From NCBI RefSeq assembly GCF_000211835.1, contig NZ_AEGR01000065.1, positions 1 through 59,812 on the forward strand: a stretch of DNA of 59,812 nt, written 5' to 3'. This document shows positions 736-26,678 of the stretch, piece by piece (position 1 is the first letter of the stretch; the number at the start of each line of letters is the position of its first letter). The stretch comes from Hylemonella gracilis ATCC 19624. GTDB taxonomy: Bacteria > Pseudomonadota > Gammaproteobacteria > Burkholderiales > Burkholderiaceae_C. Made by a program: the position numbers and the translations under genes. Below the pieces are notes generated by a model that did no database searches, was not told the DNA's origin, and saw nothing but the letters and a program-made list of their open reading frames with translations.

Positions 736-1578
736 TCAGATCAGCGGCTTGAGCGTGATTTCTTCCGGCCCCGTGGCAGGCTGCGCCTGCTCCCGGCGCG
801 CACTCTCCAGAGAGGCTTGCACGACTTGGGCCATCGCCAGGCGCACCTGGCGCGCACGGGCTGCCGCGACGTCCACCGGCACGCCGGCATGCGTGGCCAA
901 GACCTCGGACTGCAGGCGTGACGGCTCGGGCAGCGCAGCCACCCGGGTCGGCCTCGGTGGCGGTGCCGCAGGCGGGGCAGCTGGGACCGGAGGGGAGGAA
1001 ATTTCGGTCGACGTATCCGGCGGCGTGTCGGTCAGGGAAGGTGCTGCCAACACGTCAGACGCGGGCGGCAACGGACCGATGGCCGGGGCCACCTCTTCGG
1101 CGGGAGGCTGTGCAAAGGCCCCCTCGGCATGCTCGGCCTCCAGCCCGTGCGGGTCTGGCCCGGGGGTGTCGGATGTCGCGCCCGCCATCGCATCGGTGGC
1201 GCGAGGCGGCATCGTCGCATCCCCAGCAAGAGGCTGCGCGCCCGAGTCGGCAACGAGCAGCACATCGTCGGCCACCACCGGCTCGGGCGGAAGCTCCCCG
1301 CGCGCGGATCGGCGCATGCTGACTCGACGGCGCACGGCCTGTTCGTACTGGCGCGCGTCGTTCAGCCGCATCAGCACACGACCCCAGACCGTGCGGCGAT
1401 GCTCGTCGTCCAGACGCGGCCAGCTCGTGATTTCCTCGAGGCTGCGCAGGCAGACCGGGCACAGGCCCGTGCTGGTGCTGACCTTGCAGAGGGCGCAGAA
1501 CACGGGCAAGTCGCTGGGCGGCAGGTAAAGCCGCCGCACGCGCTCGGCCCAGCGTGCCTGTGCTTGCTTGTACGTCAT
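736..1578 (-). CDS. DUF1289-domain protein with long low-complexity tail
   Basis: A 280-residue protein. Residues about 28-75 carry a small cysteine-rich module with two CxxC pairs (CALC, then CPVC after TSTGL), followed by RSLEEITSWPRLDDE and RRTVW. This matches the DUF1289 pattern of CxxC, TGLC, R-(T/S)-L-(D/E)-E-I, W and ER-AVW. DUF1289 proteins are usually only 60-100 residues and of unknown function; the cysteines suggest metal binding. The remaining roughly 200 residues are Ala/Pro/Asp-rich, probably disordered and without a recognisable domain. It lies 48 bp downstream of the reductase gene on the same strand. Domain assignment is good, function unknown. Confidence 0.75.
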   Translation of the reverse strand: MTYKQAQARWAERVRRLYLPPSDLPVFCALCKVSTSTGLCPVCLRSLEEITSWPRLDDEHRRTVWGRVLMRLNDARQYEQAVRRRVSMRRSARGELPPEPVVADDVLLVADSGAQPLAGDATMPPRATDAMAGATSDTPGPDPHGLEAEHAEGAFAQPPAEEVAPAIGPLPPASDVLAAPSLTDTPPDTSTEISSPPVPAAPPAAPPPRPTRVAALPEPSRLQSEVLATHAGVPVDVAAARARQVRLAMAQVVQASLESARREQAQPATGPEEITLKPLI

Positions 1579-1626
1579 GTCACGGTCCCTCGTCTTCGAT
1601 GGTGTGGCCCGTGGGGCCGGATCTGT

Positions 1627-2574
1627 TCAATAGCCCTTCACCGGATCGACCAGCCCCGCGATGGGCTCGCCCCGCTCCAGCCGCGCGATCTTGCCGACGA
1701 TCTGCGCCACGCTTTCGTCACGCAAGGTGCGTGCCGCGGTGTGCGGCGTCACGGTGATCTTCGGATGGGTCCAGAACGGATGCCCCGCAGGCAGCGGTTC
1801 CTGGCGAAAGACATCGAGGGTGGCGCCCGCCAGATGGCCGCTGTCGATCAAGGGTATCAAATCTTCCTCGACCAAATGTCCGCCGCGCGCCACGTTGATG
1901 AGGTAGCCACCGGGCATGAGCTGGCCCAAGGTCTCGCGGTTCAATATGCCCTGCGTTTCGGAGGTCAGCGGCAAGAGGCAGACCAGCACCTTGCTCGCGG
2001 CGAGAAAAGCGGGCAAGCCATCGCGTCCCGCGTGGCACTGCACGCCGGGCAGGCCCAGATCCTCCGCGCGCCGCAGTGAGCGGCTCCAGCCTCGGACCGG
2101 AAAGTCCAGGCCCTGCACCGCGCGCGCCACACGCTGACCCAACACGCCCAGGCCCAGGATGCCCACCGGCCAATCCTGACGCGCGCGCGGCCTGCGAAAA
2201 CCCCAGTGGCCCTGCGTCGCCTCGGCCTCGTAGGCATCGAACTCACGGAAATGCCGGACCAGCGCATGGAGCACGTACTCGGCCATCTGCGCGGACATGC
2301 CCGCGTCGTCCAGGCGCACCAGCCGCAGTCCTGGCCGAAAGCGCAGCTGCGTGATGGCATCCACACCCGCGCCTAGGTTGAACAAGGCCTTCAAGCGGGT
2401 TTGCTCGTCCAGCAGCCGCTGCGGCGGCGCCCACACCAGGGCGTAGTCGCCTGGAGGCGCGCCGGGCTCCCACACCGCCACCTCGGCCTGAATGCCGGCC
2501 CCGCTCAGTGCGTGTCTCAGGGCGGACAACCAAGGTTCGGGACGAAAGTCTTCGCCGTGGAAATAGATGTTCAT
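1627..2574 (-). CDS. ghrA: Glyoxylate/hydroxypyruvate reductase A-like 2-hydroxyacid dehydrogenase
   Basis: A 315-residue cytoplasmic NAD(P)H-dependent 2-hydroxyacid dehydrogenase. It begins MNIYFHGEDFRPEPW and has a Rossmann glycine motif (GILGLGVLGQRVA), the substrate-binding arginine in INVARGGHLVEEDL, an acidic residue in TLDVFRQEPLP and the catalytic histidine in ITVTPHTAA. This is the GhrA arrangement; the family reduces glyoxylate and hydroxypyruvate. The ATG at 2574 is chosen because the upstream extension to 2652 is not family-like. It diverges from the GGDEF/EAL gene with about 270 bp between them. Exact substrate preference is inferred. Confidence 0.88.
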   Translation of the reverse strand: MNIYFHGEDFRPEPWLSALRHALSGAGIQAEVAVWEPGAPPGDYALVWAPPQRLLDEQTRLKALFNLGAGVDAITQLRFRPGLRLVRLDDAGMSAQMAEYVLHALVRHFREFDAYEAEATQGHWGFRRPRARQDWPVGILGLGVLGQRVARAVQGLDFPVRGWSRSLRRAEDLGLPGVQCHAGRDGLPAFLAASKVLVCLLPLTSETQGILNRETLGQLMPGGYLINVARGGHLVEEDLIPLIDSGHLAGATLDVFRQEPLPAGHPFWTHPKITVTPHTAARTLRDESVAQIVGKIARLERGEPIAGLVDPVKGY

Positions 2575-2846
2575 GAAGTCCTGATTGGATAGGCCCTCTG
2601 CGCAGAATTCAACACAGTCGGGGCTGCAGGTGTAACAGACCGGCACGTCCACCAGGGGCCCGATGGGACAATGCGCGATTCGCCTCTTTCAAAAAATCGT
2701 AACAAAAACCGGAGACACGCCAGGCACGCCGCATGCGGCGGCGAGCAGCGCCACGCGCCCGCATGCCTTGCACACCCAGGGCTTGCATTGGGGGTTCGCC
2801 CCCAACGGTCAAGGCCCCGCACTTTCCGGCACGGGATTTGCTGCTC

Positions 2847-5126
2847 ATGCGCTCTCGCCTTTCCAAAAACATGCCCGTCGCTCTGCCTATTCCGCCCGAC
2901 CCTGCCGTTCCTCTGACGGCGCCGTCCTCGGTCCCGGCCGGTTCTCCGGCAGGCTCACCCTCCAGCCGGTCCCGGCGCACCACCCTGCTGAGCGTGCGTG
3001 AGCTGGACCGTGCGCGGGTGCTCGACACCCTGATCAACAACCTGGACGGCATGGCCTACCGCTGTCTGAACGACGCGCACTGGACCATGGTCTTCGTCAG
3101 CCAGGGCTGCTTGGCCCTGACCGGCTACACACCGCAGGAGCTGGTGCACAACGCGGTGGTGAGCTGGGAACAGATCACCCATCCGCTGGACCGCGAGCGC
3201 GTGCGCACCTCGGTCGCCACCACCTCGTCGACCAATCTGCGTTTCGCCGTGGACTACCGCATCGTCAGCAAGGACGGCACCGTGAAATGGGTGCACGAAC
3301 GCGGCGTGGCCGTGGCCGATGAGCAAGGCACGCTGGTGATCGAGGGCTTCATCGAGGACGTCACCTCGCAGCGCGCGCTCGCCGAGGCCCAGCAAGCCGC
3401 CGAGCAGCGTTACCGCCACATCTTCGAACATGCCTCGGAAGGCATCTTCCAATCCACACCGGAAGGCCATTATCTGGAGGTCAACCCGGCGCTGGCGCGC
3501 CTGTACGGCTATGAAAACGCGCAGGCGCTGATCACGGGGCTGCAAAACATCAGCCGACAGCTCTACGTGAAGGAAGGGCAACGCGAGCTGTTCCGCCAGA
3601 TCATGGCCGAGCAAGGCGAGATACTGAATTTCGAATCCGAGATTTACCGCGCCGACGGTTCGCGCATCTGGATTTCCGAGAACGCGCACACCGTCTGCGA
3701 TGCCGAGGGCAACTTGCTCTACTACGAAGGCACGGTGCAGGACATCTCCGAGCGCCGCCGCTACCAGCAAGAGCTGGAGCACCAAGCCAACCACGACACC
3801 CTGACCGGCCTGCCCAACCGCATGCTGCTGAGCGACCGCGTGGAGCAAGGCATCGCCCGCGCGGAACGCCTGGGCTATCACCTGGTGGTGGTCTTCATCG
3901 ACCTCGACCATTTCAAGTTCATCAACGACAGCCTGGGCCACGACGCGGGTGACGAACTGCTCAAGGAAGTGGCGCTGCGGCTGCGCCGCTGCGTGCGCGC
4001 CTCGGACACGGTGGCGCGCCTGGGCGGGGACGAATTCGTGCTGCTGCTGGCGGACCACTTCCGCAGCAGCACCGTGATCGACCAACTGCAGCGCGTGCTC
4101 AGCGAGATTTCACAACCGGTGCAACTGTCGGGCCGTGAGTTCCAGGTTGGCGCCAGCCTGGGCGTGGCCATGTACCCGGGTGATGGCGAGGACGCCCTCA
4201 GCCTCTTCAAGCACGCGGACGCGGCCATGTACGCCGCCAAGGGCAACGGGCGCAACAACTTCCAGTTCTTCACGCGCGAACTGAACCACGTGGCCACCGA
4301 GCGGCTGCATCTGGAAGCGGCGCTGCGCCACGCCATCGACCACGACGGCTTCGAGGTGCACTACCAGCCCAAGACCGACGCCAACCGGCGCATCATCGGC
4401 ATGGAAGCGCTCGCGCGTTGGCGGCCGCCGGAATATGGCCCCATCAGTCCGGACCGTTTCATCCCGATCGCGGAAGACAGCGGCCTGATCCTGCCGCTGA
4501 CCATGACCATCCTGCAACGCGCGTTCGTGGCCACGCGGCGCTGGAACGAAGGGCGGGACCTGAAGCGCAACCCGCTGCGCATCGCGGTCAATCTCTCGCC
4601 GCGCCTGTTCCTGAGCGACGACATCGTCAGCCACGTGCACCGCCTGCTGCGCGACGCGGACCTGTCACCCGAGCTGGTGGAACTGGAGATCACCGAAACG
4701 GTCTTCATGAGCCGCAGCGAGCGGGTTCTCGAAACGCTGATCCAGTTCAAGCAATTGGGCTTGCAGCTGGCCATGGATGATTTCGGCACGGGCTACTCGG
4801 CGCTGAGCTATCTGCGGCGCTTTCCGCTGGACATCATCAAGATCGACCGGTCCTTGGTGACGGGCATCGAGCGCGAGGAAGAGGTCGCCATGATCGCGCG
4901 CGCGGTGCTGTCGCTGGGCCAGAGCCTGCACAAGACCGTGGTGGCCGAAGGCGTGGAGAACCAGGCGCAGTTCGACTTCTTGCGCAGCCAGGGCTGCGAT
5001 GAATTCCAGGGTTACTTGCTGTCGCGCCCCTTGAGCGAGGCAGGCATGTCCGAGTTGTTGCAGTCGCACGGCGGCTTCATCCCCGCGCCCCAGAGCGTTG
5101 ACAGCACGCCCGCCACGTCAGGCTGA
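2847..5126 (+). CDS. PAS-PAS-GGDEF-EAL bifunctional cyclic-di-GMP protein
   Basis: A protein of about 759 residues that makes and/or degrades the second messenger c-di-GMP. Two PAS folds occupy roughly residues 55-180 and 185-315. The GGDEF domain has an intact RLGGDEFV active site near residue 392, and a RASD inhibitory-site motif lies five residues before it, so product inhibition is likely. The EAL domain has EALARW near residue 519, DDFGTGYS, and IKIDRSLV, so the phosphodiesterase site also looks intact. No membrane segment is visible, so it is probably a cytoplasmic sensor. Several ATGs are possible; 2847 and 2874 both precede a low-complexity N-terminus, and an ATG at 2733 is considered less likely. 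Confidence 0.92.
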   Translation: MRSRLSKNMPVALPIPPDPAVPLTAPSSVPAGSPAGSPSSRSRRTTLLSVRELDRARVLDTLINNLDGMAYRCLNDAHWTMVFVSQGCLALTGYTPQELVHNAVVSWEQITHPLDRERVRTSVATTSSTNLRFAVDYRIVSKDGTVKWVHERGVAVADEQGTLVIEGFIEDVTSQRALAEAQQAAEQRYRHIFEHASEGIFQSTPEGHYLEVNPALARLYGYENAQALITGLQNISRQLYVKEGQRELFRQIMAEQGEILNFESEIYRADGSRIWISENAHTVCDAEGNLLYYEGTVQDISERRRYQQELEHQANHDTLTGLPNRMLLSDRVEQGIARAERLGYHLVVVFIDLDHFKFINDSLGHDAGDELLKEVALRLRRCVRASDTVARLGGDEFVLLLADHFRSSTVIDQLQRVLSEISQPVQLSGREFQVGASLGVAMYPGDGEDALSLFKHADAAMYAAKGNGRNNFQFFTRELNHVATERLHLEAALRHAIDHDGFEVHYQPKTDANRRIIGMEALARWRPPEYGPISPDRFIPIAEDSGLILPLTMTILQRAFVATRRWNEGRDLKRNPLRIAVNLSPRLFLSDDIVSHVHRLLRDADLSPELVELEITETVFMSRSERVLETLIQFKQLGLQLAMDDFGTGYSALSYLRRFPLDIIKIDRSLVTGIEREEEVAMIARAVLSLGQSLHKTVVAEGVENQAQFDFLRSQGCDEFQGYLLSRPLSEAGMSELLQSHGGFIPAPQSVDSTPATSG

Positions 5127-16523: not shown

Positions 16524-17705
16524 TCAGACCCGTTCGATCGCCATCGCCACGCCCTCGCCACCGCCGATGCACAGCGTGGCCAAGCCGCGCTTCTTGCCAC
16601 GCGCCTGCAAGGCGTGCAGCAGCGTGACCAAGATGCGCGCGCCGCTGGCGCCAATCGGGTGGCCCAGCGCGCAGGCGCCGCCGTTGACGTTGAGGATCTC
16701 GTGCGGCACCTTCAGCTCGGCCATCAGCGCCATGGGCACGACGGCGAAGGCTTCGTTGACTTCCCACAGGTCCACGTCCTTCACGCTCCAGCCCGCGCGG
16801 GCCAGCGCCTTTTGCGTGGCACCAATCGGCGCGGTGGTGAACCACTCGGGCTCGTGCGAGTTGATGGCGTGGCCCATGACCTTGGCCAGGGGCTTGCAGC
16901 CGAGCTTCTTGGCGGTGGACTCGCGCATCATCACCAAGGCGGCCGCGCCATCGTTGATGGAGGAGCTGGACGCGGCGGTGATCGTGCCGTCCTTCTTGAA
17001 GGCGGGTTTGAGCGTCGGTATCTTGTCCAGCTTGGCCTTGCCCGGGCCTTCGTCGATCTCGACCACGGTCTCGCCCGCGCGCGTCTTGACGGTCACGGGC
17101 GTGATCTCGGCCTTGAAAGCACCGCTGGTCGTGGCGGCTTGCGCGCGCTTGACGCTCTCGATGGCGAAAGCGTCCTGCGCCTCGCGCGTGAACTTGTACT
17201 TGGCCGCGCAGTCCTCGCCGAAGGTGCCCATGGCACGCCCCGCTTCGTAGGCATCTTCCAGACCGTCGAGCATCATGTGGTCGTAGACCTTCTCATGCCC
17301 CATGCGGTAGCCACCGCGCCCCTTGAGCAGCAGGTAGGGCGCGTTGGTCATGCTCTCCATGCCGCCGGCGACCACCACGTCCGCCGTGCCCGCGACCAGC
17401 ATGTCGTGCGCGAACATGGCCGCGCGCAGGCCAGATCCGCACATCTTGGACAGGGTGACGGAACCGGTGGTCTTGGGCAGCCCCCCCTTGAAGCCCGCCT
17501 GCCGCGCCGGTGCCTGGCCCTGGCCCGCCATCAGGCAGTTGCCGATGATCGCCTCGTTGACCAGCTCGGGCGCGATGCCCGCGCGCGCCACCGCCGCCTT
17601 GATGGCCGCGCCCCCGAGATCGTGCGCCGCGAGGGACGCGAAGTCGCCCATGAAGGCGCCCATGGGCGTGCGGGCTGCGCTGACGATGACGATGGGATCA
17701 GACAT
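16524..17705 (-). CDS. Acetyl-CoA C-acetyltransferase (thiolase)
   Basis: A 393-residue thiolase that condenses two acetyl-CoA or cleaves acetoacetyl-CoA. The nucleophilic Cys is at about residue 89 in VTLSKMCGSGLRA, the active-site His is in CALGHPIGASGARI, and the second Cys is in LCIGGGEG. Length and motifs match AtoB/PhaA-type biosynthetic or degradative thiolases. It could finish leucine or ketone-body breakdown by cleaving the acetoacetate-derived CoA ester, although the liu operon is 10 kb away. The ATG at 17705 follows an AGGAG. Confidence 0.93.
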   Translation of the reverse strand: MSDPIVIVSAARTPMGAFMGDFASLAAHDLGGAAIKAAVARAGIAPELVNEAIIGNCLMAGQGQAPARQAGFKGGLPKTTGSVTLSKMCGSGLRAAMFAHDMLVAGTADVVVAGGMESMTNAPYLLLKGRGGYRMGHEKVYDHMMLDGLEDAYEAGRAMGTFGEDCAAKYKFTREAQDAFAIESVKRAQAATTSGAFKAEITPVTVKTRAGETVVEIDEGPGKAKLDKIPTLKPAFKKDGTITAASSSSINDGAAALVMMRESTAKKLGCKPLAKVMGHAINSHEPEWFTTAPIGATQKALARAGWSVKDVDLWEVNEAFAVVPMALMAELKVPHEILNVNGGACALGHPIGASGARILVTLLHALQARGKKRGLATLCIGGGEGVAMAIERV

Positions 17706-17979
17706 GGTGTGCTCCTTGGGTGGGGGCCGCGTGAATGACAAAGGTGGGCGAGATCGGAAATGCCAGCGGCCGAGTCCGGCGATTGTGCCGCTAAAGAGCC
17801 TGGCCGGCACCCTTCGGCACGGGTCCGCAGCACTACGTAGGGGGGATTACCCGGCGTCGTGCCCAGGCCGTTCTTGTTCACCTCGACATGGACAAGGCAG
17901 GGCGCGCCGCGTCGCCCACGGACCCGCAGAGACCGGCCCATGCCTGCGGGACGTGCAACACCCCTCACGTCACAAACTG
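17706..17979. other. Divergent intergenic region between thiolase and nitrilase operon
   Basis: The 427 bp between the thiolase and nitrilase starts hold no convincing gene. The part nearest the thiolase should contain its promoter, but no strong hexamers stand out. The right part holds the promoter and leader described separately. Confidence 0.5.
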
Positions 17980-18008
17980 TTGACGCGCCATTTTTCCGCG
18001 TTCATAAT
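17980..18008 (+). promoter_or_regulatory. Sigma70-type promoter of the nitrilase/amide-transport operon
   Basis: TTGACG at 17980-17985 and CATAAT at 18003-18008 are each one base from consensus and 17 bp apart. Transcription would begin near 18015, giving a leader of about 118 nt that contains two hairpins and a terminator before the first start codon. This is one of the best promoter matches in the window. Confidence 0.72.
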
Positions 18009-18020
18009 TTGCGGCACTGA

Positions 18021-18060
18021 CGCGGCCTGGGCCGCGCCAGGACCTCAGCAACATTGCTGA
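18021..18060 (+). promoter_or_regulatory. Tandem small hairpins in the leader, candidate ANTAR target
   Basis: Two potential 5-bp hairpins with 6-nt loops lie 3 nt apart. The first is CCTGG (18026-18030), loop GCCGCG, CCAGG (18037-18041). The second is TCAGC (18045-18049), loop AACATT, GCTGA (18056-18060). ANTAR proteins bind paired hexaloop hairpins whose loops have A at position 1 and G at position 4. Here loop 1 keeps only the G and loop 2 only the A, so the match is partial. A competing hairpin, CGCGGC (18021-18026) with GCCGCG (18031-18036), excludes the first. The ANTAR gene at the end of this operon is the reason to take the structure seriously. Confidence 0.45.
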
Positions 18061-18076
18061 CCACATACCGGCTATG

Positions 18077-18116
18077 AAAGCCCCTGACATGCGCTAGCGC
18101 GCGGTCAGGGGCTTTT
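18077..18116 (+). terminator. Intrinsic terminator (attenuator) just upstream of the nitrilase start
   Basis: Arms AAAGCCCCTGAC (18077-18088) and GTCAGGGGCTTT (18104-18115) are perfectly complementary. The loop contains the smaller palindrome GCGCTAGCGC. The sequence runs on as T-G-CTTTT. The hairpin ends 16 bp before the ATG at 18133 and is downstream of the promoter, so it can only act as an attenuator of the operon it precedes. Confidence 0.85.
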
Positions 18117-18132
18117 GCTTTTGGGAGTTTGA

Positions 18133-19047
18133 ATGTCGTCTTCGTCGTCCGCCTTGGGCCACCGCCGTGCACCGGGTTTGTCCGCGCCCCCCCTCACCGT
18201 GGCGAGCATCCAGATGGAACCTCGCATCGGCCACAAGGAAGAGAACGTGGCCCACTCGGTGGCCCTGATCGAGCGCGCCGCGGCCGATGGCGCCGCCCTC
18301 GTGGTGTTGCCCGAACTCACCAACAGCGGTTACATGTTTGACAGCCGCGAAGAAGCTTACGCGCTGGCGGAGGCGGTTCCGCACGGCCCCACCACCATCG
18401 CCTGGGCCGACGCGGCGCGGCGCTGCAACACGTACATCGTGGCCGGCATCGCTGAACGCGATGGTGACCGCCTCTACAACTCGGCCGTGGTCATCGGCCC
18501 ATCAGGTTGGTTGGGCACCTACCGCAAGCTGCACCTGTGGGGCGACGAGCACCTGTTCTTCGAGTCTGGCGACAAGGGCCTGCCCCTGTTCCATACCCCG
18601 TGGGGCCGCCTGGGCGTGGTGATTTGTTATGACGGTTGGTTCCCCGAGGTCTATCGCCTGCTCGCCATGCAGGGCGCCGACGTCGTGGCCATGCCCACCA
18701 ACTGGGTGCCCATGCCGGGCCAGCCCGCTGGCAGCCCCGCGATGGCCAACACCCTGGCGATGGCCAGTGCCCACAGCAATGCGCTGAACATCGTCTGCGC
18801 CAACCGCACGGGCACCGAGCGAGGCCAGTCCTTCATCGGCCAGAGCCTGATCGTCGATGCCCACGGCTGGCCGCTGGCGGGGCCGGCGCCACAAGCCGGC
18901 GCCGACACCGTGCTGCTGGCGCAGCTCGACCTTCAGGCCACGCGCCAGGCACGCCAGCTCAACGCCTTCAACCACGTGCTGCGCGACCGCCGCGCCGACC
19001 TCTACGACCCCATGCTCGGCACCGGATGGCCACTGTCCCGTCACTGA
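18133..19047 (+). CDS. Nitrilase-superfamily carbon-nitrogen hydrolase
   Basis: A 304-residue cytoplasmic hydrolase of amides, nitriles or carbamoyl groups. The catalytic triad is present: Glu61 in LPELTNSGYMF, Lys132 in YRKLHLWGDEH and Cys165 in VVICYDGWFPE. The first 20 residues are a Ser-rich tail before the fold begins at LTVASIQMEPR. GGGAG lies 5 nt before the ATG. It is the first gene after the attenuator and is followed by an amide-type ABC transporter and an asparaginase, which suggests release of ammonia from an imported amide or nitrile. True nitrilase versus aliphatic amidase or omega-amidase activity cannot be decided from sequence. Confidence 0.9.
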   Translation: MSSSSSALGHRRAPGLSAPPLTVASIQMEPRIGHKEENVAHSVALIERAAADGAALVVLPELTNSGYMFDSREEAYALAEAVPHGPTTIAWADAARRCNTYIVAGIAERDGDRLYNSAVVIGPSGWLGTYRKLHLWGDEHLFFESGDKGLPLFHTPWGRLGVVICYDGWFPEVYRLLAMQGADVVAMPTNWVPMPGQPAGSPAMANTLAMASAHSNALNIVCANRTGTERGQSFIGQSLIVDAHGWPLAGPAPQAGADTVLLAQLDLQATRQARQLNAFNHVLRDRRADLYDPMLGTGWPLSRH

Positions 19048-19102
19048 TGCCGTGTTGTCCTTCCCGCTTTCCCTTAGCCTTCACCCACCAAGGAGCCTTC
19101 AG

Positions 19103-20269
19103 ATGATCACCCCCTTCCCCTCCCTCCTGCGCCACGGCCTCATCGCCGTGGTCGCCGCGTTCTCGCTGCAGGCGCAAGCCGCAGACCCCATCCGCATCGG
19201 CGTGGCCGTGGGCCTGTCGGGCGCGAACAGCGTGGTCGCACCCGCCGTGGTGCAATCCTCGCAACTGGCCGTCGAAGAAATCAACGCCTCGGGCGGCATC
19301 CTCGGGCGCAAGGTCGAACTTGAAATCGTCGACGACGCCTCGGGCGCGGTGGGCGCGCAGAAAGCCTTCGACACCCTGGTGTTCCAGAAGAAGGTCGACG
19401 CCATCATCGCCATGGAAACCAGCGCCGCGCGCAATGCGGCCCTGCCCATCATCTCGCGCGGCAAGGTGCCTTACATCTACACCTCGTTCTACGAAGGGCG
19501 CTCGTGCAACCCCTGGATGTACGTCAACGCCTGGGTGCCCGAGCAGCAGGTGGCGCCGATCGTCAACTACTTCGGCACCACCCTCAAGGCGCGCAATTTC
19601 TTCCTGGTGGGCAATGACTACGCGTTCGGGCGCGGCATGCTGGACTTCACCAAGAAATACATCGAGAAAAACGGCGGCAAGGTGGTCGGCGAGGAATACC
19701 TGCCCATCGACGGCTCGGACTGGACGCCGGTGCTCAGCAAGATTCGCGCGGCCAAGGCCGATGCACTGATCAGTGCCACCGCGGGCGGCGCGCCCAATGT
19801 GTCCCTGGCCAAGCAGCTGCAGGGCTCGGGCCTGAACCTGCCCTATGGCAACCTCGCCATCGACGAAGCCACCGCGAAGAACATGGGCGACGTGGCCACG
19901 GGCATGTACATGTCGGCCTCCTACCTGACCACCATCGGCACCCCCGAGAACCAGAAGTTCATCGCGGCGATGAAGAAGAAGTTCGGCGCCGACCTCAAGA
20001 CACCCAACGAACTCTCCGAGCCTCAGTACGAAGCCTTCTACTTGTACAAGGCGGCGGCCGAGAAGGTCGGCGCGATGGACAAGGAAAAAATCATCAAGGC
20101 CCTGGCCGAGGTCTCCTACACCGGACCGCGGGGCGAAGTGCGCATGGACAAGAGCCGCCACGCTCCGCTGTCGATGCGTCTGGCCCAGATCCAGACTGGC
20201 GGCACGATCAAGATTCTGCAGACCTTCCAAGGCGTGGACCCGGGCACGCAGTGCCCCGACCTGAAGTAA
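19103..20269 (+). CDS. Periplasmic type I binding protein of an amide/urea/branched-chain-type ABC transporter
   Basis: A 388-residue Leu/Ile/Val-type binding protein. A signal peptide covers residues 1-25 or so (LIAVVAAFSLQAQAA), and the mature chain begins DPIRIGVAVGLSG. Patterns include VEEINASGGILGRKVELEI, VGNDYAFGRGMLDF and GEEYLPIDGSDWTPVLSKI. The last resembles the AmiC/FmdD/UrtA branch, suggesting short amides or urea rather than leucine. The ATG at 19103 has AGGAG 7 nt upstream. It lies 55 bp after the nitrilase. The later AmiC-like protein shares the same fold but lacks a signal peptide, so one protein collects substrate outside and the other reads it inside. Confidence 0.9.
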   Translation: MITPFPSLLRHGLIAVVAAFSLQAQAADPIRIGVAVGLSGANSVVAPAVVQSSQLAVEEINASGGILGRKVELEIVDDASGAVGAQKAFDTLVFQKKVDAIIAMETSAARNAALPIISRGKVPYIYTSFYEGRSCNPWMYVNAWVPEQQVAPIVNYFGTTLKARNFFLVGNDYAFGRGMLDFTKKYIEKNGGKVVGEEYLPIDGSDWTPVLSKIRAAKADALISATAGGAPNVSLAKQLQGSGLNLPYGNLAIDEATAKNMGDVATGMYMSASYLTTIGTPENQKFIAAMKKKFGADLKTPNELSEPQYEAFYLYKAAAEKVGAMDKEKIIKALAEVSYTGPRGEVRMDKSRHAPLSMRLAQIQTGGTIKILQTFQGVDPGTQCPDLK

Positions 20270-20281
20270 ATGCACTCCGAG

Positions 20282-20302
20282 TCCGGCGCCGTTGGCGCCG
20301 GA
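20282..20302 (+). other. Strong hairpin after the binding-protein gene
   Basis: TCCGGCGCC, a 3-nt loop, then GGCGCCGGA form a perfect 9-bp stem 12 bp after the stop codon. No T-run follows, so it is unlikely to terminate. Such hairpins often protect the mRNA of abundant binding proteins from 3' decay, which would raise its level over the permeases. Confidence 0.65.
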
Positions 20303-20417
20303 GCGAACCTCACGCCTCCACCTTTCCACCCACGCCAAGCAGGACGGTCCGGCCGGGCACGGCCCGTGCTTCGACCCAGGACCCGTGCACCATCAAAAAG
20401 AACCGAGGAGCCCTCTG

Positions 20418-20468
20418 ATGACCAGAAAACGCCGTGTTCCCTTCGATCACCCGCTGTCCGACAACTAG
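20418..20468 (+). CDS. Candidate 16-residue micropeptide
   Basis: A tiny frame encodes MTRKRRVPFDHPLSDN. It has GAGGAG 7 nt before its ATG, a better ribosome site than most real genes nearby, and stops 9 bp before the LivH-type start. It is basic at the N-terminus, with no hydrophobic stretch. It may couple translation into the permease, act as a small regulator, or be fortuitous. The 208-bp gap it sits in holds nothing else but the hairpin at 20282. Confidence 0.35.
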   Translation: MTRKRRVPFDHPLSDN

Positions 20469-20477
20469 GAACGCACC

Positions 20478-21311
20478 ATGGTTCTGCTGCTGGACACACT
20501 CACCACCGCCGCGATGTTATTCATCGTCACGGCGGGACTGATGATGATCTTCGGGGTCATGAAGATCGTGAATTTCGCGCATGGCGCGCTGCTGACCCTG
20601 GGCGCGTACGCGAGTTACGTGGTCACGCGCCTGCAGCTGGATGCCTGGCTGGCCTGGCCGCTGGCCATCGTGGTTGGCGTGACCGTGGGCATGCTGGTGG
20701 AGGCGCTGATCGTGCGCCCGCTCTACAAGCGCCCGCTGGACGCCATCCTGGCGACCTGGGGACTGGGCATCGTGATCGGCCAGTTGATCGTGATGGCCTT
20801 CGGTCGCGAGGTGCAGTTCGTGGACGCACCCCTTTCAGGCACTTGGCGGGTGGCTGGACTGGACTATTCCGCCTACCGCCTGATGCTGGTGCCGGTGGCG
20901 ATCGCCTTGTGCCTGGGACTCACCGGCCTGCTCAGTGGCACGCGCTTCGGCGTGCGCACGCGCGCCGTGATCATGAACGAAGAACTGGCCAGCAGCCTGG
21001 GCATCCACTCGGGCCGCGTGCGCTTCATCACCTTCAGTCTGGGGGCCAGCCTGGGCACGCTGGCGGGCGCCATGATCACGCCGTTCTCCAGCGTGGACCC
21101 CAACATGGGTCTGCCCTGGCTGGTCAGCGCCTTCATGCTGGTGATGGTCTCGGGCCATTCCATGGTCAGCCTGCTGCTGACCTGCGTCGTCTTCAGCGCT
21201 GCCCAGGTGCTGGTCAGCACGTATGCCAGCCCCGTGCTGGGTGGGCTGACCATCGCCGTGCTCGCGGCCATCACGCTGCGCATCCGTCCCAAGGGGTTTG
21301 CCCGTGGCTGA
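20478..21311 (+). CDS. LivH-type ABC transporter permease
   Basis: A 277-residue inner-membrane permease of the LivH/UrtB family with about eight hydrophobic segments. Near the N-terminus are LFIVTAGLMMIFGVMKIVNF and AHGALLTLGAYASYVV, the hallmark of this family. TRFGVRTRAVIMNEELASSL is the cytoplasmic coupling loop. The stop codon overlaps the next start by 8 bp. With the following LivM domain it would form the pore for the periplasmic binding protein upstream. Confidence 0.9.
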   Translation: MVLLLDTLTTAAMLFIVTAGLMMIFGVMKIVNFAHGALLTLGAYASYVVTRLQLDAWLAWPLAIVVGVTVGMLVEALIVRPLYKRPLDAILATWGLGIVIGQLIVMAFGREVQFVDAPLSGTWRVAGLDYSAYRLMLVPVAIALCLGLTGLLSGTRFGVRTRAVIMNEELASSLGIHSGRVRFITFSLGASLGTLAGAMITPFSSVDPNMGLPWLVSAFMLVMVSGHSMVSLLLTCVVFSAAQVLVSTYASPVLGGLTIAVLAAITLRIRPKGFARG

Positions 21312-23124
21312 TACCTCCCTGCATCACAACCAGACATCGCCACAGTCCGCCGCGCCCGTGCGCGCACGGGCCGCGTCCCTCCATCATGTCGTGCTGCTGG
21401 CGGCGATGGGCGCGGTGCTGCTGGTCGCGGGCCCCTGGATGTTCGACACCTACCTGCTCAACATCCTGATCAAGGCGTTTTTCTTCGCCATCGCGGCGAT
21501 CACGGTGGACATCCTTTGGGGCTACACCGGCTACCTGACCTTCGGCCAATCGGCCTTCTTCGGCATCGGGGCCTATGCGGCCGGGCTGACGTTCACGCAC
21601 GCCGGCTTCAGCGCATCCACGGCGCTGCTGGCGATGGGTACCACGCTGCTGGGCTGCGCCGCCGTGGCCGGCTTGGTGGGATGGCTGTCGTTCTACCGCG
21701 GCGCCTCGCCCTTCTTCGCCACGGTGATCTCGCTCGTGCTGCCCATCGTGCTCACCCAGCTGCTGCTCTCGGGTGGCAGCTTCACCGGGTCGAGTTCAGG
21801 GCTCACGGGCTACCCGACGTTCGACGGGTCCATCGAGGCCTGGTACTGGGCGGCGGGCAGCCTGCTGACGGTGGCCGGTGTCATCGGCTGGGTGCTGGTG
21901 CGCAGCGACGCGGGGCGCATGCTCCTGGCCATCCGCGACAACGAGGCACGCTGCACCTACCTCGGCATCAACACCTCGCGGGTGAAAACCACGCTGCTCA
22001 TCGCCATGGGCGTCATGGCCGGCATCGCGGGCTTCGGCTACAGCAGCTTCAGCGGCGTGGTCGCACCGGAACTCACCGGCTTCGCGCTGGGCACCGAACT
22101 CATCATCTGGGTGGCGCTGGGCGGCCGGGGCACGCTGTGGGGGCCACTGGCGAGCGGGGTGCTGGTCAACGTGGCCACGGCTTACCTGAGCAGCAGCATG
22201 CCGTTTGCCTGGCAGCTGATCCTGGGTGCGGCCTTTGTGGTGGTGATCGTGCTGTTCCCGCAAGGGCTCATCCCCCTGCTGCTCCAACCCTTCGGCCTGT
22301 CGCGGGACGTGGCGCGCGCGCCGCTGCTGCGGGAGCGGGCCGTCACGCCAGGCGCCCAGGCCTCCGGCACGGCGCTGCGCATGCGGGGCGTGACCAAGAA
22401 CTTCGGCGCACTCAAGGTGCTGCGGGGCATCGACTTCGAGGCTCAGTCCGGCGAACTGGTGGGTCTGATCGGCCCGAATGGCGCGGGCAAGACCACCTTG
22501 ATGCGCTGCATGAGCGATGGCATTGAACGCAGCGGCGGCACGGTGGAACTGTGCGGCATCGACATCCGCCAGCTGCCGCCCGAGGTCTGCGTGCACCTGG
22601 GTCTGGGCCGCAAGTTCCAGAACGCCAACATCTTCGAGTCACTGACCGTGGCCGAATGCCTGCGCATCGCCGGTACCCGGCTGGAGCGCCCCTCGCTGCT
22701 GCGCCAGAACCCGGTACTGCAGCTGCCCGCCTACGCGCTGCACGTGCTGCACACCACGGCGCTGGACCACAAGCTGACCACGGTGGCGCGCGATCTGTCT
22801 CACGGCGAGCAGCAGGCGCTGGAACTCGCCATGGTGCTCGCGCTGAAGCCGCGCGTGGTGCTGCTCGACGAGCCCACGGCGGGTCTGACCAAGACAGAGC
22901 GCACCCAGATTGGCGAGTTGCTGTCCTCGCTGGCCCATCAGCATGGGTTGTGCTGCCTGCTGGTGGAGCATGACCTCGACCTCGTGGCGCAAATCTCGAC
23001 CCGCATCGTGGTTCTGCACCAGGGAACGATCGTCATGCAGGGCAGTTTCCAGGAGGTGGTGAATTCGCCCCTGGTCAAGACCATCTACTCCGGCGACGCC
23101 CGGCCCCAAGGGGAGCACGCATGA
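21304..23124 (+). CDS. Fused LivM-type permease and LivG-type ATPase
   Basis: A 606-residue fusion. Residues 1 to about 335 are a LivM/UrtC-like permease with many membrane helices (ITVDILWGYTGYLTFGQSAF and IRDNEARCTYLGINTSRVK are family motifs). After a short linker a LivG-type ATPase begins near 357: Walker A GPNGAGKTTL near 389, signature LSHGEQQALELAM, Walker B VVLLDEPTAGLTK. GTG at 21304 is chosen because AAGGGG lies 7 nt upstream; the in-frame TTG at 21298 is too close to it. Translation is coupled to LivH (8-bp overlap) and to LivF (4-bp overlap). In most operons the two halves are separate genes. Confidence 0.9.
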   Translation: MADTSLHHNQTSPQSAAPVRARAASLHHVVLLAAMGAVLLVAGPWMFDTYLLNILIKAFFFAIAAITVDILWGYTGYLTFGQSAFFGIGAYAAGLTFTHAGFSASTALLAMGTTLLGCAAVAGLVGWLSFYRGASPFFATVISLVLPIVLTQLLLSGGSFTGSSSGLTGYPTFDGSIEAWYWAAGSLLTVAGVIGWVLVRSDAGRMLLAIRDNEARCTYLGINTSRVKTTLLIAMGVMAGIAGFGYSSFSGVVAPELTGFALGTELIIWVALGGRGTLWGPLASGVLVNVATAYLSSSMPFAWQLILGAAFVVVIVLFPQGLIPLLLQPFGLSRDVARAPLLRERAVTPGAQASGTALRMRGVTKNFGALKVLRGIDFEAQSGELVGLIGPNGAGKTTLMRCMSDGIERSGGTVELCGIDIRQLPPEVCVHLGLGRKFQNANIFESLTVAECLRIAGTRLERPSLLRQNPVLQLPAYALHVLHTTALDHKLTTVARDLSHGEQQALELAMVLALKPRVVLLDEPTAGLTKTERTQIGELLSSLAHQHGLCCLLVEHDLDLVAQISTRIVVLHQGTIVMQGSFQEVVNSPLVKTIYSGDARPQGEHA

Positions 23125-23840
23125 GCGTCACCACGTTTCCACCGGCACTGGCGCTCCACGGCGTCACCAGCGGCTACCGCGGGTCCGTGGTACTGCGCGA
23201 CCTCACGCTGCGCATCCACCGAGGCGAAGCCGTCGCCCTGCTGGGCAAGAATGGCATGGGCAAGAGCACTCTGCTCAAGACGGTGATGGGCTTTCTGAAC
23301 AAGCAAGCCGGCACCATCCACCTGAACGGCGAGAACATCACGCGCCAATCAACGCACCACATCGCGCGCCAGGGCGTGGCCTATGCGGCGCAGGAGCAGC
23401 CTCTGTTCGCGGACCTGAGCATCCGCGACAACCTGCGCCTGGGCTTGCCGCGAGCGTCACTCTTCGAGGAGCGATTCGCCACGGTGGAGCCCCTGTTCCC
23501 GGTGTTTGGCAGTCGACTGGCGCAGCACGCTGGCACGCTGTCGGGCGGTGAGCAAAAGATGCTGCTGCTGGCCCGCGCGCTGATGGCGCGGCCCTCGGTG
23601 ATCCTGCTGGACGAAATCACCGAGGGTCTGCAGCCTTCGGTGATCGACCGTCTCGCCCAGGCCTTGCTGCGAGAGCGCGATCAGCACGGAACCACCCTGC
23701 TGGTGGTGGAGCAGAACGTGCCCTTCGCGCTGCAGCTGACAGACCGCTACCTGATCCTCAAGCAGGGCGAGCTGATCGATGAAGGCGAATCCAGGGTCGA
23801 TGGCGCCATCGACGCGGTGTACCGTCACCTGCGGGTTTGA
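23121..23840 (+). CDS. LivF-type ABC transporter ATP-binding protein
   Basis: A 239-residue ATPase that pairs with the fused LivG domain. Walker A is LGKNGMGKSTLL, the signature is LSGGEQKMLLLARALMARP and Walker B is VILLDEITEGLQP. The Asp-Glu-Ile-Thr-Glu form is common in LivF/UrtE. GGGGAG lies upstream of an ATG that overlaps the previous stop (ATGA). Confidence 0.93.
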   Translation: MSVTTFPPALALHGVTSGYRGSVVLRDLTLRIHRGEAVALLGKNGMGKSTLLKTVMGFLNKQAGTIHLNGENITRQSTHHIARQGVAYAAQEQPLFADLSIRDNLRLGLPRASLFEERFATVEPLFPVFGSRLAQHAGTLSGGEQKMLLLARALMARPSVILLDEITEGLQPSVIDRLAQALLRERDQHGTTLLVVEQNVPFALQLTDRYLILKQGELIDEGESRVDGAIDAVYRHLRV

Positions 23841-23852
23841 GGAGCAAACACC

Positions 23853-24878
23853 ATGGCGCATTCGATGCAGATGCAGACCCAGCCCCCCGTTGCGCTGAAC
23901 GTACCCTTGTGCCAGCTGATCGCGACAGGTGGCACCATCGCCATGAAGATCGACCCTGTGCGAGGCGGCCCCGTGCCCGCGCTCTCCGGGGCAGACCTGC
24001 TGGCCGCCGTGCCGGCCATGGCGCAAGTCGCACGGCTGGAAGTGCGCGAGTTGTTCAACATTCCCTCGGACCACGTGGACGCAACGCACTGGCTGCGCTT
24101 GAAGCACGCGGTGGACGAGGCACTGGCACGTCCCGAGGTCACCGGAGTCATCGTCTCGCATGGCACCGACACGATGGAAGAAACCGCCTGGTTCCTCGAC
24201 CTCGCCATCGACAGCGACAAACCGGTGGTGCTGACGGGCGCCCAGCGCAATGCCTCGGTGCCGGACTTCGACGGGCCGCGCAATCTGCTCAACGCGGCAC
24301 GCGTGTGCGTCGAGCGGAGCGCGCAAGGCATGGGGGTGATGGTCGCCATGAACAACCAGATCCATGCCGCGCGCGAAGTCAGCAAGACGCACACGTCCGA
24401 CGTGGAGGCGTTCAAGTCCGGCGATTTCGGCCTGCTGGGCGTGATCGACGAGGACCGGGTGGTCTTCTCGCGTCGGCCCACGCGACGCCTGCATCTGCCG
24501 CCGCAATCGGGGGCACTCCCGCGGGTCGAGATCATCCCCATGTTCGCGGGCGCCCGCGGCGATCTGCTGTGCGCCGCGGTCGCTCTGGGTGCGCGGGGCA
24601 TCGTGGTGCAGGCCCTGGGCCTGGGCAATGTGAACGTTGACCTGCTAGCGGCCGTGAAGGAGGCCATCGCGCAAGGCGTGGTCGTGGCCGTCGCGACGCG
24701 CGTGCCCAACGGCCGGGTGCAACCGGTTTACGGCTTCGAGGGTGGCGGTCGCACCCTGCAGGCGGAGGGCGCGGTGTTCACCGACAATCTCAGCCCGCAC
24801 AAGGCCCGCATCTTGCTCATGCTGGCGCTGCAGAGCGCCACAACCCCCAGTCAGTTGCAAAGCCTGTTTGACCGATGA
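23853..24878 (+). CDS. L-asparaginase (type II-like fold, no signal peptide)
   Basis: A 341-residue asparaginase/glutaminase-family amidohydrolase. The first catalytic motif is LIATGGTIA with the nucleophilic Thr near residue 28. The second is VSHGTDTMEETAWFL with the Thr-Asp pair near 105-106, and a Lys-containing third motif follows in the ALGLGNVN and MNNQIHAAREVSK regions. No signal peptide is visible, so it acts in the cytoplasm after import. It sits 12 bp after livF and 9 bp before the AmiC-like gene. The operon context suggests asparagine or a related amide is a substrate and possibly an inducer. Confidence 0.9.
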   Translation: MAHSMQMQTQPPVALNVPLCQLIATGGTIAMKIDPVRGGPVPALSGADLLAAVPAMAQVARLEVRELFNIPSDHVDATHWLRLKHAVDEALARPEVTGVIVSHGTDTMEETAWFLDLAIDSDKPVVLTGAQRNASVPDFDGPRNLLNAARVCVERSAQGMGVMVAMNNQIHAAREVSKTHTSDVEAFKSGDFGLLGVIDEDRVVFSRRPTRRLHLPPQSGALPRVEIIPMFAGARGDLLCAAVALGARGIVVQALGLGNVNVDLLAAVKEAIAQGVVVAVATRVPNGRVQPVYGFEGGGRTLQAEGAVFTDNLSPHKARILLMLALQSATTPSQLQSLFDR

Positions 24879-24887
24879 AGGAACGCC

Positions 24888-26045
24888 ATGCCCGATGACC
24901 TGACCCCGCCACGATCAGCCCAGGGAGAAGGCTGGCGCGTTGGCGTGCTGTTTTCGCGCTCGGGGCCCACGGGCGTCACCGAGTCGGAGCACTTCTTCGG
25001 CACGGCGCTCGCCATCGAGGAGATCAACCAGCTCGGCGGCGTGCTTGATCGCCCCTTGATTCCCGTGGTCCACGACCCCAAGGGCGATATCGCCGAGTAC
25101 CGCAAGCTCGCAACGCGCATGCTGCTGGAAGACGAGGTCACCGTGGTGTTCGGCTGCTCGCGATCGTCCAGCCGCAAGGCGGTGTTGCCGGTCATCGAAC
25201 GCAACAATGCGCTACTCTGGTATTGCTCGTTCTACGAAGGCTTCGAGTACTCGCCCAACGTGATCTACACCGGTGCCGTGCCCAACCAGAACAGCGTGCA
25301 GCTGGCGGCCTACCTGATGCAGAACCGCGGCACGCGCTTCTACCTGGTGGGTGCCGACTACATCTACCCGCGAGAGTCCAACCGCGTCATGCGCGACATG
25401 GTGGAACAGCATGGCGGCGAGATCCTGGACGAGGTTTACCTGCCCATCGAGGCGAGCGACGTGGAACTCAAGGAGGTGCTCACGGACATCCGCGCGCAAC
25501 AGCCGGACGTGGTCTTCTCCACGCTGGTGGGCCAGTCAGCGCGGCGGTTCTACCAGCTGTACCCTGAGTTCGGACTGGACCCGAAGAAGATGCCGATTGC
25601 CAGCCTGTCCATGGCCGAGGAAGAGATACGCCTGATCGGTCCGGCGCTGTGCGAGGGGCATATCACCTCGGCCACCTATTTCGGCTCGGTGCGCAACGAA
25701 AGCAACCAGCGCTTCCAGGCGCTGTGGCGCGAGCGCTTCGGTGATCGGCCCACCAGCACCTGGTCGGAGATGGCCTACACCCAGGTGCACCTGTTCGCGC
25801 GTGCCCTGCAACGCGCCGGCGGCATGGACCGGCGCAAGTTGGTGGAAGCGGCGCGCACGGTCTCCTTCGATTCACCGGAAGGCCTCGTGACGGTGGATGC
25901 CGAGAACAACCACTGCGCCCTCACGCCGCGCATCGGCATCTGCCGAGCCGACGGGCAGTTCGAGATCGCCTGGGAAGCCTCGGGACCGGTACGCCCCGAC
26001 CCCTACTTGTCCACCTTCGGCTTCTCCGAGTTCTGGTTGAGGTGA
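24888..26045 (+). CDS. amiC: AmiC-like cytoplasmic amide-sensing regulator
   Basis: A 385-residue type I periplasmic-binding-fold protein without a signal peptide. It resembles Pseudomonas aeruginosa AmiC along its length: YEGFEYSPNVIYTGAVPNQN, VGADYIYPRESNRVMRDM, DVVFSTLVGQSA and EASGPVRPDPYLSTF. AmiC binds small amides in the cytoplasm and, when empty, holds AmiR inactive. It is followed 3 bp later by an ANTAR protein, reproducing the amiC-amiR pair. Ligand specificity may differ from acetamide because the enzymes here are a nitrilase-type hydrolase and an asparaginase rather than AmiE. Confidence 0.88.
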   Translation: MPDDLTPPRSAQGEGWRVGVLFSRSGPTGVTESEHFFGTALAIEEINQLGGVLDRPLIPVVHDPKGDIAEYRKLATRMLLEDEVTVVFGCSRSSSRKAVLPVIERNNALLWYCSFYEGFEYSPNVIYTGAVPNQNSVQLAAYLMQNRGTRFYLVGADYIYPRESNRVMRDMVEQHGGEILDEVYLPIEASDVELKEVLTDIRAQQPDVVFSTLVGQSARRFYQLYPEFGLDPKKMPIASLSMAEEEIRLIGPALCEGHITSATYFGSVRNESNQRFQALWRERFGDRPTSTWSEMAYTQVHLFARALQRAGGMDRRKLVEAARTVSFDSPEGLVTVDAENNHCALTPRIGICRADGQFEIAWEASGPVRPDPYLSTFGFSEFWLR

Positions 26046-26048
26046 GCG

Positions 26049-26678
26049 ATGAGTTCGAGCCTCCGCCGCCTCTACGAAGATTTGCGCAGCATCAGCGTCA
26101 CGGTCGTCTACCCACCCGGGGAAGACCGCGACGTGGTGGTGCAACAGCTGCAGCGCATCGGCTGCCGCCTCAAGGTGGTGTGGCCCTTCCCGGCCGAACC
26201 CCCCGCGGGCGTGGACGTGATCCTGTTCCAGGTGTCCCAGGACCTGGAGGGCCGCAGCGCCTGGAACGCCAGCGCGGTGGACGCGGCGTTCGTGGCCCTG
26301 TCGGACTATGAAAGCCCGACCACGCTCAAGCTGCTGCTGGACACGCGCGCGCACGGTGTCATCACCAAGCCGTTCCGTTCCTCGGGCATCTTGAGCACGT
26401 TGGTGCTGGCTCGTGCGTCGCAGGGTTTTCAGCAGCGCCAGCAGGGCAAGATCGAGAAGCTGGAATCCACCATCAAATCGCGACGCCAGATCGAGAAAGC
26501 CATCCGCGTGCTGGTGGACTACCAGCGCATGACGGAAACCCAGGCCTACGAGCACATGCGCGAGCGCGCCACCGGCCTGCGCGTGACGGTTGCCGAGGTG
26601 GCCGCGATGCTGCTGGAGGCGCACGAGGCCATGGAGAAGTTGGGTTTCGCGACAGCCAAACCCGCGAGCGGGAAATAG
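26049..26678 (+). CDS. amiR: AmiR-like ANTAR transcription antiterminator
   Basis: A 209-residue regulator. The N-terminal part is a degenerate receiver-like domain (VTVVYPPGEDRDVVVQQLQR; SDYESPTTLKLLLDTRAHGV and ITKPF). A coiled coil follows at about residues 125-150 (RQQGKIEKLESTIKSRRQIE), then the C-terminal ANTAR RNA-binding helices (AIRVLVDYQRMTETQAYEHM and later TVAEVAAMLLEAHEAM). AmiR binds leader RNA and prevents termination once released from AmiC. The expected target is the attenuator at 18077-18116 of its own operon. It is the last gene; the next gene is convergent. Confidence 0.88.
   Translation: MSSSLRRLYEDLRSISVTVVYPPGEDRDVVVQQLQRIGCRLKVVWPFPAEPPAGVDVILFQVSQDLEGRSAWNASAVDAAFVALSDYESPTTLKLLLDTRAHGVITKPFRSSGILSTLVLARASQGFQQRQQGKIEKLESTIKSRRQIEKAIRVLVDYQRMTETQAYEHMRERATGLRVTVAEVAAMLLEAHEAMEKLGFATAKPASGK

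Follow-up and report, generated by a model that had tools for sequence, protein, structure and literature searches.

The window, the whole 59,812-nt stretch of DNA analysed here, carries on its plus strand an amide-use operon (18133-26678) that runs from an amidase through an ABC transporter, an asparaginase-family enzyme and an AmiC-like protein to AmiR. The first gene (18133-19047) encodes a nitrilase-superfamily amidase (CN_hydrolase, 7.4e-56), for which the nearest solved structure is the archaeal nitrilase 3ivz. It is followed by an ABC transporter of the urea/amide type (19106-23840), matched by the UrtA-E models at scores below their own cut-offs, with genes for a binding protein (19106-20269), a permease (20478-21311), a permease-ATPase fusion (21298-23124) and an ATPase (23121-23840). 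The fusion joins UrtC- and UrtD-like domains, permease and ATPase, in a single protein of 608 residues. An asparaginase-family enzyme (23853-24878) and an AmiC-like amide sensor (24888-26045; solved AmiC 1qnl/1pea, 1.7e-86) come next, the latter 3 nt upstream of amiR (26049-26678). The original prediction had taken the last gene to code for an AmiR-like ANTAR protein, as it does: the product combines the AmiR_N pseudo-receiver (PF21332, 3.5e-38) with an ANTAR domain (PF03861, 4.9e-11), the domain pair by which AmiR is defined.

The gene order amidase-transporter-(asparaginase)-AmiC-AmiR is kept in Acidovorax, Herbaspirillum, Cupriavidus, Ramlibacter, Variovorax, Achromobacter, Bordetella, Pseudomonas and others. 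Among 25 congeners no AmiR relative better than E 6.7e-8 was found and, judged by sequence, the operon is sporadic within its genus and has its nearest kin in Acidovorax. Given the lack of an orthologous AmiR in these congeners and the 95-96% identity of the Acidovorax proteins, the distribution probably reflects horizontal transfer or wide loss. Two of the Acidovorax operons (loci L031 and L032, about 930-4425) carry approximately 3.5 kb between the binding-protein and first permease genes that is absent from the window. Partial AmiR matches (residues 67-200 and 95-205) occur in two Variovorax genomes (L074 and L075, around 10001), with no match to the amidase, AmiC or asparaginase of the window operon around them.

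The operon is preceded by a leader of approximately 118 nt, about 18015-18132, from promoter to amidase start. A sigma70-type promoter, TTGACG-17-CATAAT, lies at 17980-18008 on the plus strand, where it had been predicted; the pattern by itself is at chance level (1 found against 1.3 expected in 16 kb), and a permissive scan of the 48 homologous leaders finds a promoter-like pair no more than 150 nt from the first conserved hairpin in 44, and in 28 of these the -35 is of the TTGAC type. Transcription would then start near 18015. The folding of the 120-nt leader has a z-score of -4.7, with none of 200 shuffles as good. At the predicted transcript start is a 5' stem-loop (18017-18040, -14.0 kcal/mol), and downstream follow two hairpins that we call P1 and P2. 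P1 (TCAGC-AACAUU-GCUGA, 18045-18060) is supported by covariation and has the first loop base, A1, at 18050 and the fourth, A4, at 18053. A 9-nt linker (18061-18069) separates it from P2 (18070-18082), which is supported by conservation in 48 leaders and can be drawn as GGCU-AUGAA-AGCC or as GGC-UAUGAAA-GCC. The 3' arm of P2, AGCC at 18079-18082, is shared with an intrinsic terminator (18079-18122, -28.5 kcal/mol) as the base of its 5' arm; in this terminator 18079-18088 pairs with 18104-18113 around an inner hairpin. The terminator reads AGCCCCUGAC...GUCAGGGGCU at 18079-18113, then TTTTGCTTTT, with T-tracts at 18113-18116 and 18119-18122. It had been correctly located in the original prediction, 16 nt before the amidase ATG at 18133; our own pattern scan did not list it because of its loop limit of 8 nt. 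The gene upstream of the operon, a thiolase, is divergent on the minus strand and therefore cannot be the gene that this terminator closes. A likely ribosome binding site, GGGAG, follows at 18123-18127. No Rfam family reached its gathering score over 17000-19000, the best being isrO on the minus strand with 18.4 bits (E 0.51, cut-off 42).

Genome contigs were scanned for AmiR, which gave 47 relatives with 66-96% identity in the best segment and the operon around most of them. Leaders were read at 44 of these 47 loci, 42 directly and L031 and L032 through L078 and L079, leaving out L052 (contig edge) and L074 and L075 (no amidase gene); together with the window and L086, L087 and L109 they make up the 48 leaders. 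P1, P2 and the terminator are present in all 48 aligned leaders, always with the second hairpin overlapping the 5' arm of the terminator, and no locus with its amidase leader in view lacked the motif. The original prediction of an ANTAR attenuator, possibly of a divergent target class, was to fall if homologous operons lacked paired hairpins and a terminator at this place, and all three parts are kept there. In P1, 99.5% of cells are paired, and over 41 distinct rows the outer pair is GC in 26, UA in 11, and AU, CG, UG and another combination in one each. In the terminator, 96.8% of cells are paired and three pairs show compensating changes on both sides. In controls with the 3' partners slid, 25-54% of cells are paired in P1 and the terminator, all below the true register. 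The GGCUAU and AGCC of P2 are invariant in 48 of 48 leaders, and for that reason its pairing has no support from covariation. A covariance model of the leader gives one strong match in its own genome (81 bits), and the only other match (19.9 bits) falls on the complementary strand of this terminator. With one strong site, the operon itself appears to be the sole target of AmiR. In the 25 congeners the model found nothing better than E 0.04, and weak matches in 11 of them (E 0.04-0.8) were taken as chance.

The two hairpins first proposed as the ANTAR pair, with 5-bp stems and 6-nt loops 3 nt apart, can both be found in the sequence (CCTGG-GCCGCG-CCAGG at 18026-18041 and TCAGC-AACATT-GCTGA at 18045-18060). 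The second is the conserved P1, but the first is not conserved: a hairpin of this kind ending 1-6 nt before the P1 core occurs in 2 of 48 leaders, the window and L044, and that of L044 is different and overlaps the P1 flank, while L078 and L079, the Acidovorax loci with 94-96% identical AmiR, lack the hairpin at 18026-18041. The partner of P1 is instead P2, which had been overlooked, and the suspicion voiced at the time that a site might be mis-drawn was right, the true second hairpin being the one that overlaps the terminator base. The competing hairpin CGCGGC-CTGG-GCCGCG (18021-18036) likewise exists and is preferred by the minimum-energy fold, as part of the 5' stem-loop that excludes 18026-18041, but its proposed role as a switch finds no support. 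The 5' segments of 28 of 48 leaders fold at z -2 or lower (60 shuffles each), with a different sequence each time, which makes a structure of the 5' end a likelier reading of 18017-18040 than a switch. In the alignment, the conserved alternative folding is that of P2 against the terminator, not that of 18026-18041 against 18021-18036. The arrangement in which 18026-18041 and 18045-18060 form the ANTAR pair and 18021-18036 the switch is thus drawable, but its first hairpin is confined to the window, has G at loop position 1 and makes no contact with the terminator, and we regard it as very improbable.

According to PMC3369931 and PMC8934654, each of the two hairpins of an ANTAR target has a hexanucleotide loop with A1 and G4, and the second hairpin overlaps the terminator base. 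In the EutV-RNA structure (PMC8934654), Tyr164 stacks with the flipped G4, to which Arg142, Lys149 and Glu160 form bonds, and Met172 plugs the RNA loop. The leader departs from this rule in both hairpins. Its P1 has A at base 4, and P2, GGC-UAUNNNA-GCC in 48 of 48 leaders, has a loop of seven bases, or five if the U-A pair forms; the loop starts with A only when that pair is counted as stem, and the 7-nt reading has G at position 4 in 19 of 48. P1 loops are six bases long in 26 of the 48 leaders, the window among them, and seven bases long in 22. In the hexaloops of the window clade only positions 1 and 4 are invariant (A in 26 of 26 each), and A stands at position 1 in 21 of 22 heptaloops. 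From this invariance, the same two positions appear to matter here as in known targets, with A replacing G at position 4. The window linker of 9 nt lies inside the 5-12 nt of Enterococcus faecalis; linkers are longer in part of the clade and reach approximately 14-16 nt in Achromobacter and Bordetella, by eye on the aligned leaders.

The protein departs at the corresponding places. The ANTAR domain of the window AmiR aligns to EutV without gaps and keeps Arg142, Glu160, Tyr164, Arg168 and Arg175, but in EutV numbering Lys149 is replaced by Ile and Met172 by Thr. All close AmiR orthologues have Ile or Val at 149 and Thr at 172, whereas Pseudomonas aeruginosa AmiR, EutV, Rv1626 and NasR (1qo0, 6wsh, 1s8n and 4akk) have both Lys149 and Met172. 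As hexaloops in both hairpins and G4 were looked for and not found, we do not file the leader as a canonical ANTAR target, although it is predicted to work like one. Searches of open-licence papers, judged by title and opening abstract, turned up neither the operon leader nor the altered loop code. The mechanism class is already known; the variant with A4, an odd P2 loop and altered AmiR residues appears to be new within that scope.

The relation between residue 149 and loop base 4 was followed in 117 rows of AmiR and leader, 45 from the window and the 44 loci and 72 from 129 fetched regions; no leader was assigned in the other 57 regions, NasT-like proteins among them, some of which may not reach the leader. 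Automatic motif calling missed or misplaced several P1 hairpins, and one run found none. Loops in the 69 rows outside the window clade, which belong to more distant AmiR proteins, were read from printed leaders by program and by eye, not blind, and the presence of the letters was confirmed by program for 36 of the 69. After 22 rows with 7-nt P1 loops were dropped together with L105, L151 and L152, in which P1 was not placeable, 92 rows remained for base 4. Proteins with Lys149 go with G4 in 33 of 35 rows, the exceptions being L208 with A4 and L176 with U4. Those without Lys149 go with A4 in 40 of 57 and with G4 in 17: Ile149 with 21 A and 4 G, Val149 with 15 A and 3 G, Gln149 with 3 A, Ser149 with 1 A and Thr149 with 10 G. 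The Ile149 and Val149 rows that keep G4, and so weaken the link, are L147, L195, L198 and L199, and L143, L184 and L196, respectively, and the three Gln149 proteins also lack Glu160. Tree contrasts on starred branches give 3 that agree, none that oppose and 1 neutral with 81 rows, and 2, 0 and 2 with 117 rows, for which 65 of the 200 pairings yield 1, 0 and 3; the rows are related, and both sets are too few to reach significance. Among the first 56 hexaloops, column 149 ties with alignment column 73 and EutV 153 as the best fit to base 4, so it is the EutV structure, not the count alone, that singles it out. With few independent contrasts and out-of-clade loops read partly by eye, the link between residue 149 and base 4 is a hypothesis, but a good one. 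A second candidate, that Met172 to Thr goes strictly with a P2 loop starting with U, held in 81 of 81 rows and was broken once Alphaproteobacteria were added; in the larger set Thr172 goes with U in 76 of 76, and Met172 with A in 24, G in 8 and U in 9.

Leaders elsewhere show further arrangements. Alphaproteobacterial AmiR operons with Thr172 can have, abutting P1 at 0-2 nt, a third hairpin with a six-base loop (for example GAGC-AGGUUU-GCUC), which makes, with P1 and P2, a triple-hairpin ANTAR leader. It occurs in 4 of 4 Ile149 and 8 of 13 Val149 leaders, its loop starts with A in 11 of 12, and in these loci (L143, L144, L146, L147, L182, L184, L186, L192, L195, L196, L198 and L199) the leader lies after amiR. 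At three loci (L174, L179 and L183) an attenuator-like leader precedes amiC, some 1200 nt ahead of amiR, and another follows amiR at approximately +720 to +770, and L148 and L149 have two successive attenuator-like motifs after amiR, at about +640 and +765, both drawn with G4 in P1.

From comparative sequence evidence, we consider it very probable (roughly 0.85) that the leader acts as a transcription attenuator dependent on AmiR and controls the whole amide-use operon, including its own regulator. The basis for this is observed: conserved anatomy, covariation, the AmiC/AmiR gene order and one strong genomic site. In the mechanism that we infer, RNA polymerase would start near 18015 and, without inducer, AmiC would hold AmiR, the terminator at 18079-18113 would fold and the polymerase would stop at the T-tract, short of the amidase gene. 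Once AmiC binds an amide-like ligand, AmiR would be freed as a dimer and would bind first the emerging P1 and after it P2. With its 3' arm (18079-18082), P2 would thereby capture four bases at the terminator foot, next to the T-tract; the terminator would fail and the operon would be read. By itself P2 is much weaker than the terminator (-3.6 against -28.5 kcal/mol), so it would win only if the protein captures it during transcription, which fits a default-off attenuator opened by AmiR. As a second layer, the AmiR-leader pair has drifted from the usual ANTAR code, with A4 for G4 in P1, a P2 loop of 5 or 7 nt, and Lys149 and Met172 lost. What speaks against the attenuator is that P2 is invariant and its five-base loop is no hexaloop, that P1 lacks the G4 needed by EutV, and that the linkers of Achromobacter and Bordetella are at least as long as the 14 nt reported in PMC3369931 to cut EutV function.

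Other explanations of the terminator do less well. A constitutive terminator or a terminated small RNA unrelated to AmiR, such as a decoy or insulation element, would yield a stable transcript of approximately 100 nt, and AmiR-RNA binding is itself a prediction; however, conservation extends past the terminator to P1 and P2, which stand before AmiC/AmiR operons in many genera, and other AmiR groups carry a like motif after amiR or before amiC, where regulated genes start, which makes this improbable. Ribosome-mediated attenuation, in which a leader peptide sets the folding of the terminator, could draw on an open reading frame in the window, ATGAAAGCCCCTGACATGCGCTAG (MKAPDMR) at 18074. An ATG is present there in 19 of 48 leaders, with a stop after seven codons in the window only, and we reject this explanation, to which such poor conservation leaves hardly any credence. 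The AmiR-dependent attenuator is our preferred reading, within which the departure from the ANTAR code can be explained in two ways. A4 and the P2-loop changes may be neutral drift, AmiR reading mainly the stem and A1, and the loss of Lys149 having relaxed the need for G4. G4 is found with every residue-149 class except Gln and Ser (4/25 Ile, 3/18 Val and 10/10 Thr), the tree contrasts are few, and Met172 AmiRs also occur with P2 loops that start with U (9/41) or have 7 nt (3/41), but the invariance of positions 1 and 4 alone in the clade P1 hexaloops suggests that A4 is held and not drifting; we rate drift only a little below an even chance. Alternatively, the pair may be re-coded, residue 149 (with 160 and 172) reading base 4, A4 having been able to take the place of G4 once Lys149 was lost, and the change preventing cross-action of AmiR and NasR on each other's leaders, an idea that we hold tentatively and place clearly below even.

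Published searches for ANTAR targets, as described in PMC3369931, required A1 and G4 in each loop. A class with A4 in P1, odd P2 loops and loss of two contact residues suggests that such searches undercount targets. If the re-coding is true, ANTAR specificity follows a residue-to-base code and searches with A1 and G4 fixed miss whole classes; a genuine residue-base link would allow orthogonal ANTAR switches to be distinguished from their sequences. The variants of leader and AmiR are in any case natural material for testing how ANTAR proteins choose their RNA.

Compared with known systems, the locus resembles the ami leader of P. aeruginosa, as described in PMC3369931, in having a terminator between promoter and amidase gene, AmiC and AmiR in the operon, a short upstream hairpin and a second one at the terminator base. 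It differs in that its amidase is not of the AmiE type (67 bits with the aliphatic amidase model against a cut-off of 427), in having its own transporter and asparaginase, and in its AmiR, a 31% class relative of P. aeruginosa AmiR 1qo0 (E 1.6e-23) without the Lys149 and Met172 of the latter. In L108, where AmiR is 88% identical to 1qo0, the leader as drawn has the P1 loop AGCGUC (A1, G4), the P2 loop AAAUGG and a 28-nt linker. The eutP, eutG, eutS and eutA leaders of E. faecalis EutV likewise have two hairpins with the second overlapping the terminator, and the window linker lies within their range, but EutV needs A1/G4 hexaloops, in contrast to the A4 in P1, the 5- or 7-nt P2 loop and the Ile149 and Thr172 of the window.

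One other ANTAR protein is encoded in the genome, a NasR-kind NIT and ANTAR protein (L218, G000 contig C71, 26123-27757) that has Lys149 and Met172. The next gene downstream encodes an NMT1-type transporter protein, which we take to be nitrate-type, and between the two genes lies a leader with P1 GUGCC-CA-ACC-AAUGAC-GGU-CA-GGCAC and P2 GGAC-AACGGC-GUCC, the latter at the base of a terminator that folds at -38.1 kcal/mol. Like the window leader, it has P1 and then P2 on the terminator base, before a transporter gene; unlike it, approximately 22 nt and an extra hairpin separate P1 from P2, and both loops, AAUGAC and AACGGC, have A1 and G4. As read from their sequences, a canonical and a variant ANTAR system occur together in this genome, and the coexisting NasR would make a differing code useful, perhaps for insulating the two.
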